DNA of 64,000 nucleotides from Elusimicrobiaceae bacterium (GTDB lineage Bacteria > Elusimicrobiota > Elusimicrobia > Elusimicrobiales > Elusimicrobiaceae): the NCBI GenBank assembly GCA_017520185.1, contig JAFXGO010000029.1:62001-126000 (forward strand). Direction: 5' to 3'. The position numbers were made by a program, and so were the translations under genes. Each line of letters begins with the position of its first letter. Within the stretch, counting starts at the first letter, position 1. The notes beneath the pieces were generated by a model. It was not told where the DNA came from, did not search any database, and saw only the letters and a program-made list of their open reading frames with translations. Shown here one piece after another: positions 10,398 through 14,015 of the stretch.

Positions 10398-12095
10398 TTA
10401 TTTGATCTTGTACCGCCAATAATACCCTCCAGCTAGAGCTCTCTGTCCTTTACAAACCATACAAATATTAGCATGATTAATCTTTAACTTTCTTGAGGCT
10501 TCAGAAAGAGAAATAAAAGTAGCTATTACTTTTTTTGTTTTTGGATCTAACATTTCTATAGCCTTTCGCTTAACAGCAGTAACTTTCTCAACGCCACATT
10601 TAGGGCATCCCGTTCCTCTTACTCTATGGTCGATAGTTGCTTCCCATTCCTGACTACATTTTTTACATTTCCACCAAACCTTTGCGGTTGAGCCTAAAGT
10701 AAACATATTGGGCATAAGGGTCTTATTCTTTGTTGGATGCCATTCTTCAACCAAATCCTGTCTTAAGTCATTTAAAGAGTCCTTCTTGAGAGATACCAAA
10801 TACTTGCGGATTTCATATTTATCTCTTTCCGTGTTGACATCAATTTTGGCACAAAAAGTATGACTTTGTAATAAACTGCTATGTTTTAGATGATTAAGTA
10901 ATATGAGAATAAGTTTATCTAATGCTTTTTTACTTTTATCTAGGTTGGGAACATGTAACAATAAATCATAAGAACATTTTTTTACTATATTCTCTTCTTT
11001 TTCTCCTTCTCTCAAGCGAACTAATTTAATACCGTGTTCTTGACAAATATGATATTTTCTTAATTCTCTCCTATTTTTCTCAGATTTATGATAATAAACC
11101 CCATCATATTCTATTCCAAGTTTTAATTGAGGAATATAAATATCTAATTCCATTCCATTCGTAAAAATATCTTTATATCTATTGATCGCATCTGGATAAA
11201 TTTTTTTAAGATAAAAGAAAACTGCCTGTTCTGCAAAAGATGTTTGCCGTCCTTCATTGCAAACAGGACACCCTGTTCCATTACTTCTATGATTAATCGT
11301 TGCTTGATATTCATGACCTTTCGGGCAAATCCACCAAACCTTTTTAGACATACCATGGGAAACATTAGAAGGCTTTAAATTCCCATTTTTTTGGAAGTTC
11401 CATTCTTTTGCAAGGGCAGGATGAGTTGTAGCTAAATCATTTTTTCCAAATATTACTACTTGATTAGAACACAAAGGACATCCTCTTTTTAATAAATTAC
11501 GGTTAGATATTTTAGCACGCCACTCATAACCACACTTATGACATATCCACCAAGCATACTTATTGCTAGACGGAGTAAAATCTTTAGGAGTAAAATTTCC
11601 ATTTTTATGGGGATGCCATTCTTTAATCAATAAAGAATCTTTTATACATCCTTTTTTTTGAAGAAAAGTTTGTTGGCGAGCATTTTTTATTTTTTCTATT
11701 GCACAAATAGGGCAGCCCGTTCCTCCAAGTGTCCTATTGCGCACTTGTGTTTGCCAACTATGTCCACAAACAGAGCAGATCCACCAAACTTTCCTCGTAG
11801 AAGTTGCTACAACATCCACAGGAAGTAAAGATATATTCAGTTCTTTATTCCATTCTTCTGCTATATTTGGGAAATTAGACTGTAAATCATTAAACCCAAC
11901 TAATACCTGATGATTTGAGCAAATAGAACAACCTAGACCTACAGACCTATTATATATCGTAGCCTGATATTTATGACCTTTAGGGCATTTCCACCACACT
12001 TTTTTATTGCTTCCTTGAGACAGGTCAGCAGGATTTAAAGTGTTTTTCTTATAATCCCATTCTTTCATTAATTTTGGATTATCGATTAGTTTCAT
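10398..12095 (-). CDS. zinc-ribbon-repeat protein with an embedded Vsr-like nuclease domain
   Basis: This 565-residue protein has four repeats of a WW-x-C zinc-ribbon unit (about 8-60, 65-131, 153-209, 215-279). Each has KxxWWxC, a CxxC or CxxxH pair, and a closing GCPxC. A nuclease-like core follows at 283-375, with ELDIYIP near D318 and GIEYDGVYYH with E329/D331/H336. Then comes a fifth ribbon (445-500) and a C-terminal NUMOD1-like segment (514-565, including SLSEASRKLKINHANI). This resembles DUF4379-type ribbons joined to Vsr/DUF559-like endonucleases and free-standing homing endonucleases. A DNA-cleaving mobile or defence role is inferred. It is flanked by repeat B and a recombinase remnant. 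Confidence 0.7.
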   Translation of the reverse strand: MKLIDNPKLMKEWDYKKNTLNPADLSQGSNKKVWWKCPKGHKYQATIYNRSVGLGCSICSNHQVLVGFNDLQSNFPNIAEEWNKELNISLLPVDVVATSTRKVWWICSVCGHSWQTQVRNRTLGGTGCPICAIEKIKNARQQTFLQKKGCIKDSLLIKEWHPHKNGNFTPKDFTPSSNKYAWWICHKCGYEWRAKISNRNLLKRGCPLCSNQVVIFGKNDLATTHPALAKEWNFQKNGNLKPSNVSHGMSKKVWWICPKGHEYQATINHRSNGTGCPVCNEGRQTSFAEQAVFFYLKKIYPDAINRYKDIFTNGMELDIYIPQLKLGIEYDGVYYHKSEKNRRELRKYHICQEHGIKLVRLREGEKEENIVKKCSYDLLLHVPNLDKSKKALDKLILILLNHLKHSSLLQSHTFCAKIDVNTERDKYEIRKYLVSLKKDSLNDLRQDLVEEWHPTKNKTLMPNMFTLGSTAKVWWKCKKCSQEWEATIDHRVRGTGCPKCGVEKVTAVKRKAIEMLDPKTKKVIATFISLSEASRKLKINHANICMVCKGQRALAGGYYWRYKIK

Positions 12096-12297: not shown

Positions 12298-12573
12298 TTA
12301 ATTTTGAAGTTTATTAAAAAGCTCTTTAATTTCCGCGATTCTTTCCTTGGCCATGTCTTGATCTTTAAAAGAATCCGTCACGCATTTTTCCAAATGGGTG
12401 GATAAAATATTTTTTTCCACAGACACAATAGCAGAACGCACCGCTTTTAATTGAATTAAAATTTCGGGGCAATATCTCTGCTCTTCTATCATTTTTTTAA
12501 TACCTTCCAACTGACCGATAATTCTATTTAATCTAGGAAGTTCAGCTTTGTGACAAGGGTGTTGAGTGGGCAT
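12298..12573 (-). CDS. csoR: CsoR-family metal-sensing repressor
   Basis: This 91-residue all-helical protein has the CsoR/RcnR fold signature RLNRIIGQLEGIKKMIEE and the Cu(I) ligand triad Cys (RYCPEI), His and Cys (THLEKC), the C-H-C pattern of copper-sensing CsoR. The start is the ATG at 12573 with GAGG upstream; the longer frame begins inside the intergenic hairpin. CsoR releases its operator when it binds copper. It is the second gene after a metallothionein-like peptide, under a promoter with two matching operators, so autoregulation is expected. No copper-exporting ATPase lies in the window. Confidence 0.88.
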   Translation of the reverse strand: MPTQHPCHKAELPRLNRIIGQLEGIKKMIEEQRYCPEILIQLKAVRSAIVSVEKNILSTHLEKCVTDSFKDQDMAKERIAEIKELFNKLQN

Positions 12574-12597
12574 AAGATCCTCTTTTTTGTAAAATAG

Positions 12598-12622
12598 GTC
12601 CCCGAGCGTCATACTCGGGGAC
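12598..12622 (-). terminator. hairpin between the metallothionein-like gene and csoR
   Basis: A 9-bp stem GTCCCCGAG/CTCGGGGAC with a seven-base loop lies between the two genes. The following T stretch is imperfect (CTATTTTAC), so it may act as a partial terminator or mRNA stabiliser that makes more peptide than repressor. Confidence 0.55.
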
Positions 12623-12633
12623 TTTTAGTTATA

Positions 12634-12744
12634 TTATTTGCTATTTGTCGGCTTCGGACATTTGCAAGTAGTACCATCGCACTGGCAGTTATCGCCGCAG
12701 GTACAAGGGTCACAGGTGCATTTCGGATTTGAACATTTTGCCAT
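12634..12744 (-). CDS. metallothionein-like Cys-rich peptide
   Basis: This 36-residue peptide has a GGAGG ribosome binding site 5 bases before its ATG. Nine cysteines (4, 9, 11, 14, 16, 20, 22, 27, 29) form four CxC pairs (CTC, CTC, CQC, CKC) with no signal peptide and no aromatic residue. That is the design of a cytoplasmic metallothionein that binds Cu(I) or similar soft metals in clusters. It sits directly behind a CsoR-type operator and ahead of csoR, so it is very likely induced by copper. I do not recognise a named family. Confidence 0.8.
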   Translation of the reverse strand: MAKCSNPKCTCDPCTCGDNCQCDGTTCKCPKPTNSK

Positions 12745-12757
12745 ATTTTCCTCCTTT

Positions 12758-12774
12758 ATACCCCCTATGGGTAT
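12758..12774. promoter_or_regulatory. CsoR-type operator 1
   Basis: ATACCCCCTATGGGTAT is an inverted repeat of the CsoR type (TACCCC with GGGTA arms). It lies just downstream of the -10 of the metallothionein-csoR promoter, over the expected start site. Confidence 0.75.
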
Positions 12775-12781
12775 TTATTAT

Positions 12782-12810
12782 ATTATATACCCCTTGGGGG
12801 TATTTGTCAA
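12782..12810 (-). promoter_or_regulatory. consensus promoter of the metallothionein-csoR operon with operator 2 in the spacer
   Basis: On the minus strand TTGACA (12810-12805) and TATAAT (12787-12782) are both perfect, with a 17-base spacer. Operator 2, ATACCCCTTGGGGGTAT (12787-12803), fills that spacer, so repressor binding would block the polymerase. Confidence 0.85.
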
Positions 12811-12832: not shown

Positions 12833-12862
12833 TTGACAAATATAACTATTTTATAGTATAAT
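12833..12862 (+). promoter_or_regulatory. promoter of the effector-like operon
   Basis: TTGACA at 12833-12838 and TATAAT at 12857-12862, 18 bases apart, predict a start near 12869 and a leader of about 133 bases before the ATG at 13002. The leader contains no obvious riboswitch fold that I recognise. Confidence 0.7.
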
Positions 12863-13001: not shown

Positions 13002-14015
13002 ATGTTCAAACGCATCAGCACAAAACTTCCGCACCGCCAACACGGGCAAAATCGCCAAAAAAACTTCATCTATTACCCCTCAAAAGATGTTGAAATCAAA
13101 ACCATGGAGTTGCCGCTTGATAAGCAGGAATCAGAAGAACTACACCCCCTACGCAGGCGATATTTAGAAAACCGTCTGCAACAAATTGCCCATCACGAAA
13201 GAAAACAAGCTATCCAAGACAAATTCACCACGCGCATGTATGGCAAACAAGATTATACCGAAGAAAAAAAGAATATTATGCAAGAGCTCTTACAAGCCAA
13301 GCAATCTCGCTCGAGCAATCATCAATATTTTGATGAAAGATTGGAAGATTTCACTGACGAGCAACAAGCCCAAGAAAAATATCCTCACACCCCTAAGGCA
13401 GTGGGGAAAGCAATCGCCCGTTATGAAAGGGAAAACCCCGAGGAATATCAAACATATATGGAAGAAATGGAAGAAAGAGAAAAAGCAAACAAAAAAACTT
13501 GGCAAACCGCCACTTTGGAAGAATGGAAGCGAAAAGATGCTGAATACCAACAAACTCAACCCTCTCATTGCAATACTGCATTGGGGAGTTTATTAAAAGA
13601 AAAGGGAATTGATTTACCCGCAAATAAATCTATGAATGATATAATAAACTTTATGGAAACTTCTGATGATTGGCAAAAGATTCCCCGTACGCAAAAAGGA
13701 CTTTTGGATCATCAAACAGCCAACGATTTGGCTAAAAAAGGAGAAACAGTGGTCTTCGGATACAACAATCCCGAAGGACACGGGCATGGTGGAATGTTAA
13801 CAGGAAATCCCACCATGTTTGAAAGTAAAAATTTCAAAGACAAGGAAGGTCATAAGATTGCTGTACCTGAGGTACAAGGAAGCATAGGCAAAGAAGAAAT
13901 AACTACCAAACATTTGGGATATCATATTACATCAAACAAAGAACCTCACACGAACTATTATATTTACAAAGGAAACTATAGTAAAGATTCCCAAGAAACA
14001 CAAAAAAATGAATAA
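13002..14015 (+). CDS. putative Cys/His amidase-type effector
   Basis: This 337-residue protein starts behind AAAGGAG. Residues 1-185 are highly charged and helical, with many Gln/Glu/Lys/Arg and no signal peptide. The C-terminal part (about 187-325) has a Cys-Asn start (HCNTALGSLLKEKGIDLP, C190), a MNDIINFM helix and GHGHGG (H260, H262) followed by beta-rich sequence. This layout fits NlpC/P60- or Tae-like papain-fold amidases, with C190 and H260 or H262 as catalytic candidates. The three next genes overlap it in one operon and all encode exported proteins, as immunity proteins to a cell-wall amidase would be. Fold and function are inference. Confidence 0.5.
   Translation: MFKRISTKLPHRQHGQNRQKNFIYYPSKDVEIKTMELPLDKQESEELHPLRRRYLENRLQQIAHHERKQAIQDKFTTRMYGKQDYTEEKKNIMQELLQAKQSRSSNHQYFDERLEDFTDEQQAQEKYPHTPKAVGKAIARYERENPEEYQTYMEEMEEREKANKKTWQTATLEEWKRKDAEYQQTQPSHCNTALGSLLKEKGIDLPANKSMNDIINFMETSDDWQKIPRTQKGLLDHQTANDLAKKGETVVFGYNNPEGHGHGGMLTGNPTMFESKNFKDKEGHKIAVPEVQGSIGKEEITTKHLGYHITSNKEPHTNYYIYKGNYSKDSQETQKNE

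Follow-up and report, generated by a model that had tools for sequence, protein, structure and literature searches.

A candidate autoregulated metal-buffering operon pairing a metallothionein-like peptide with a CsoR repressor in Elusimicrobiaceae

Organization of the locus

The window analysed here is a 64,000-nt stretch of an Elusimicrobiaceae bacterium MAG (GCA_017520185.1; contig JAFXGO010000029.1, positions 62,001-126,000); the MAG as a whole (G000) comprises 1.4 Mb and is 95.5% complete. Between window positions 12810 and 12298, on the minus strand, a promoter with its operators is followed in order by a short ORF for a Cys-rich peptide, a hairpin, and csoR (Table 1). The initial annotation had described a perfect TTGACA-17-TATAAT promoter with one operator exactly in the spacer and a second over the start, and all three elements were recovered as described: the promoter (12810-12782) carries 12 of 12 consensus bases, operator 1 has the form ATACCCC-CAA-GGGGTAT and extends over the first T of the -10 hexamer, and operator 2 lies between the -10 hexamer and the Shine-Dalgarno sequence, 29 bp from operator 1 when measured centre to centre. 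The two predicted operators would serve both the peptide gene and csoR from this one promoter. For csoR we took the ATG at position 12573 as the start codon; a further in-frame ATG upstream of it, at 12612, falls inside the hairpin.

Table 1 Features of the operon, in window coordinates.
Feature	Position	Strand	Basis
-35 hexamer TTGACA	12805..12810	-	sequence match
Operator 1 ATACCCCCAAGGGGTAT, perfect palindromic arms	12787..12803	.	fills promoter spacer
-10 hexamer TATAAT, 17-nt spacer	12782..12787	-	sequence match
Operator 2 ATACCCATAGGGGGTAT	12758..12774	.	predicted +1 and 5' UTR
Shine-Dalgarno AAAGGAGG of peptide gene	12750..12757	-	sequence
Metallothionein-like peptide gene, 36 aa, nine Cys	12634..12744	-	ORF, 67 relatives, purifying selection
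Intercistronic hairpin, 10 bp stem, then weak broken U-tract	12598..12622	-	folding; recurs in spaced operons
GAGG, likely ribosome-binding site of csoR	12579..12582	-	sequence
csoR, 91 aa, CsoR/RcnR family repressor, C35-H60-C64 plus Y34/E81	12298..12573	-	PF02583 match

Two further features were seen next to the operon. A second perfect promoter, TTGACA-18-TATAAT, faces the opposite way 30 bp beyond operator 1 (12833-12862, plus strand) and aims at a 337-aa ORF (13002-14015); it is kept in a near relative that has the same locus, the water buffalo colon Elusimicrobiaceae MAG G043 (JAFYXM010000006). On the other side, the operon adjoins a 565-aa ORF containing repeats of a CxxC unit (10398-12095, minus strand), which is missing at the corresponding position in G043, the two flanks there being directly joined.

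The peptide, its repressor, and the hairpin between them

The peptide (MAKCSNPKCTCDPCTCGDNCQCDGTTCKCPKPTNSK) has the 36 residues and nine Cys first reported for it, although these are not all in CxC pairs, as had been claimed: there are four such pairs plus Cys4. Its small size, richness in Cys, CxC motifs, conserved Cys, and lack of any other domain are features of metallothioneins (MTs). Searches against Pfam and NCBIfam models at E-values up to 10 matched no family, in which it differs from SmtB/SmtA-type bacterial metallothioneins, and its PDB match, a cadmium metallothionein, was marginal (E=6.7); as no named metallothionein family model matched, we class the peptide as metallothionein-like only. 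Comparison with the peptide of a second module on contig C13 of the MAG (see below) gave a pS of 0.59 and a pN of 0.046, indicating purifying selection, and among relatives the core CxNPxCxCxxCxCGxxCxC is nearly constant, with extra Cys-rich repeats lengthening many of the alphaproteobacterial forms. The peptide would be expected to fold only upon binding metal; for CsoR, structures are already known.

The csoR product matched PF02583 with an E-value of 1.5e-26 and 93 bits (cut-off 22.8), and the complete Cys-His-Cys triad attributed to it is present as C35-H60-C64, the same x-C-H-C ligands as in Cu(I) CsoR. These three residues, together with Y34, E81, and the N-terminal His8, are invariant in 44 MT-linked CsoRs. 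We take the Tyr34/Glu81 pair to be equivalent to the second shell of Cu(I) CsoR; InrS has Pro where CsoR has Tyr. The ATACCC-type inverted repeat sits in the target promoter, as in CsoR systems, and operator 1 is an exact match to ATACCCCnnnGGGGTAT, the CsoR box of C. glutamicum (PMC5057107). The closest CsoRs that are not MT-linked, found on plasmids of Criblamydia, Legionella, and Asticcacaulis, adjoin copper-type ATPases.

The intercistronic hairpin, previously noted as strong, folds at -19.5 kcal/mol (z = -4.6). Across relatives, a hairpin was predicted in all 21 loci with a peptide-csoR spacer of 37-89 nt, each at -11.8 kcal/mol or lower, and no stable stem occurred in the 15 loci with a gap of at most 21 nt. 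The two Elusimicrobiaceae modules retain the fold with different stem sequences. Among Gastranaerophilales, most stems continue into a T-run and are terminator-like, whereas in both Elusimicrobiaceae modules the T-run is weak or absent; given that neither has a proper U-tract, the hairpin may stabilise the mRNA here rather than terminate transcription. Its recurrence in the spaced operons makes it plausible that it sets the peptide in excess over csoR. A separate observation concerns 11 Gastranaerophilales loci (L045-L053, L055, L065), in which an extended -10-like ATG(T/G)TATAAT lies a few bases before the csoR start codon, a placement resembling that of a leaderless transcript of csoR's own.

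Relatives across phyla

A search for peptide homologues behind CsoR sites had been proposed in the initial annotation. Using the peptide alignment as query, we scanned about 85,000 species genomes and obtained 67 loci with relatives. Gut Alphaproteobacteria, Candidatus Gastranaerophilales, and Elusimicrobiaceae all carry the peptide-csoR operon, and relatives without csoR were found in Tsukamurella, Mycobacterium, Bacteroidota, Fimbriimonadaceae, and an acidimicrobial MAG. The initial annotation had supposed the peptide to be too short for standard gene callers; at the one Tsukamurella plasmid relative no gene is listed, in a gene table that is known to be incomplete. A csoR gene was present in the fetched stretch at 42 of the 67 loci and directly downstream of the peptide at 36. 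Calling an operator where 11 or all 12 of the arm bases matched within 120 bp upstream of the peptide, we detected one at 35/42 csoR-linked loci versus 1/25 loci without csoR, counts that are not to be read as probabilities because the loci are not phylogenetically independent; at the same threshold there was no operator elsewhere in 309,981 bp. In most relative loci the operator lies inside the -35/-10 spacer, a placement common to three phyla, and many relatives also have a second site. Comparison across phyla strongly supports a module made up of the MT, CsoR, and the predicted operator.

Presence of the module is sporadic within the phylum (3/341 genomes). In the CsoR tree the MT-linked Elusimicrobiaceae sequences form one clade, the nearest by path being those of Gastranaerophilales, with the deep forks unresolved. 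This placement and the sporadic presence together suggest that Elusimicrobiaceae gained MT-csoR horizontally.

Weak peptide matches in other genomes (L013-L025, L027-L030) were set aside as noise, with neither csoR nor an operator at these loci. A search of IMG/VR yielded no confirmed relative of the peptide. A faecal contig labelled 'Bacteriophage sp.' (MT836935) encodes a related 40-aa peptide (L036:3909-4031), but none of the ORFs listed for it was recognised as csoR, and they look bacterial despite the phage label.

Operator sites and exporters in the genome

Scanning the 1.4 Mb MAG for other ATACCCC-type operators, as had also been proposed, we found the exact pattern ATACCCN4-5GGGTAT at four sites, a pair for each of the two MT-csoR modules, and the reversed control pattern at none. 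The second module lies on the 11.9-kb contig C13 (locus L031). We considered this copy as a duplication and rejected it: over 10,187 bp the contig shares 99.87% identity with a near relative of another species, the sheep colon Elusimicrobiaceae MAG G024 (JAFVWP010000137), against only 72.5% for a core region, and it was therefore probably mis-binned. Genes flanking the C13 copy are not conserved in the genus. With or without this copy, the CsoR regulon defined by exact matches appears to be the MT-csoR operon alone. An operator-like sequence on another contig (C34:15137, TACCCCTTGTAGGGGTA) falls outside the exact pattern, and its neighbours include no recognised metal gene. Allowing two mismatches gave 47 sites compared to 40 in the control, and we dropped these as a wider regulon given that they hardly exceed the control.

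The statement that no exporter ATPase accompanies the operon proved to hold genome-wide. We found no HMA domain and no canonical CopA in the MAG, though at 95.5% completeness an exporter may have been missed. Its single P1B-like ATPase is divergent, with GCPLC replacing CPC and without an HMA domain, scores just below the NCBIfam heavy-metal cut-off and well below the copper cut-off, and has neither an operator nor linkage to csoR; an ATPase of like size and score also occurs in members of the genus without any CsoR. The three MT-bearing genomes of the genus have this ATPase only, versus three P-type ATPases in each of five examined relatives with other CsoRs. In five same-genus relatives (L119-L123) a CPC-type copA adjoins csoR, both copA genes tested among them passed the copper-ATPase cut-off, and their CsoRs are placed far from the MT-linked CsoRs in the tree.

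Which metal is sensed

Copper is our best guess for the sensed metal and likely the correct one. The original reading of the locus as a copper module is favored by the Tyr-Cys-His-Cys-Glu set and the C. glutamicum box, and is weakened by the CDF and MerT-like genes in the operons of some relatives. These genes raise the alternative that the circuit is the same and serves Zn(II), Cd(II), or a different soft metal, bound by a Zn/Cd metallothionein and sensed by a CsoR of relaxed specificity. At three loci (L043, L044, L072) a CDF exporter lies between the peptide and csoR, the tested CDF being nearest to the ZitB and DmeF models. At another three (L074:2723-3109, L093:1218-1613, L101:2661-3002) this position is taken by a small CCGLP membrane protein; these proteins matched no Pfam family, and weak MerT/MerTP similarity was seen in the L093 protein only (MerT-like, E=6e-4). 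An ATPase of Zn/Cd type by NCBIfam also lies about 1 kb upstream at L094. The CDF or CCGLP genes suggest that at least these six relatives may sense Zn, Cd, or Hg, and certain CsoRs are also responsive to Zn and Cd (PMC5057107). The metal sensed by MT-csoR could accordingly be broader than copper. We nonetheless judge a circuit dedicated to Zn, Cd, or another soft metal to be unlikely in the face of the C-H-C site with second-shell Tyr and Glu as in Cu(I) CsoR, the operator's identity with a published CsoR box, the copper ATPases adjoining the nearest CsoRs that are not MT-linked, and the restriction of CDF- and CCGLP-containing operons to just 6 of the 42.

It is far less probable that the peptide serves as a metallochaperone or as a store feeding a cuproenzyme rather than as a detoxifier: cytosolic copper storage proteins of Streptomyces are reported to be tied to CsoR regulation (PMC6414726 and titles cited there), but the MAG offers neither an HMA domain nor a canonical CopA to receive copper. 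Lastly, the notion that a chance Cys-rich ORF lies upstream of an autoregulated csoR, with the operators serving csoR alone, might draw on the peptide's 36-aa length and lack of a Pfam or NCBIfam family, but is refuted by its conservation, with 67 relatives, purifying selection, a Shine-Dalgarno sequence of its own, and a Cys pattern kept across phyla.

A model of the operon

The reading we prefer, at a probability of roughly two in three, is that of a self-contained, autoregulated buffering operon for a thiophilic metal, most likely Cu(I), which would act by sequestration rather than export. We infer that a promoter of consensus strength would be silenced by tetramers of apo-CsoR bound to operator 1, between the -35 and -10 hexamers, and to operator 2, at the predicted start of transcription. 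Cytosolic Cu(I) filling the Cys35-His60-Cys64 site would cause CsoR to leave the DNA, upon which the peptide would be made in bulk and csoR, behind the hairpin, in smaller amounts. The nine thiolates of the peptide would then clamp the metal as a cluster, and the fall in free metal would allow CsoR to re-bind, closing a negative feedback. As the CsoR regulon is apparently this operon only, the induced response would be one of sequestration rather than export.

Discussion

Accounts of bacterial copper defence usually centre on export pumps. Among known systems, the closest in logic to the window operon is RicR–MymT of Mycobacterium tuberculosis, in which a CsoR-family copper repressor controls itself and the small Cu(I) metallothionein MymT and is derepressed by Cu (PMC10470581; PMC7558416). 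The window operon shares with it predicted repressor sites at the MT promoter, which here would also drive csoR. RicR, however, governs five loci including a multicopper oxidase, in an organism that also has CsoR, whereas the window MAG has no other exact operator target; and unlike in RicR–MymT, the peptide and repressor are in one operon. Closest in regulator are the CsoR–CopA and CopZA systems, with a C-H-C site and an ATACCC/GGGTAT-type box (PMC5057107, PMC10233261), yet their output is an exporter and that of the window a putative sequestering peptide, and the CopA version within the same genus uses a CsoR distant from the MT-linked one. In output, the closest are SmtB/SmtA-type metallothioneins, likewise small Cys-rich cytosolic proteins under a metal-released repressor, which is of the ArsR/SmtB type in place of CsoR; AzuR–NmtA similarly places a metallothionein under a metal-released repressor (PMC8790569). 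Csp3 of Streptomyces also represents CsoR-linked sequestration as copper defence (PMC6414726), but it is a folded four-helix bundle forming a second layer on top of export, in contrast to the short peptide of the window.

In the literature searched, which was covered in part, we found no description of a peptide-csoR operon of this kind. It is an even bet, in our estimation, that these loci constitute an undescribed and horizontally spread MT–CsoR operon class, one that lets gut bacteria from three or more phyla respond to copper by autoregulated sequestration, stands in for a copper exporter in Elusimicrobiaceae, and is built on an unnamed, modular family of short metallothioneins. If so, a one-promoter, two-gene buffer that targets itself only would be a minimal natural circuit for metal homeostasis, recurring across phyla in animal guts. 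It would open an unannotated metallothionein family to study and would give a compact, testable sensor/buffer module.
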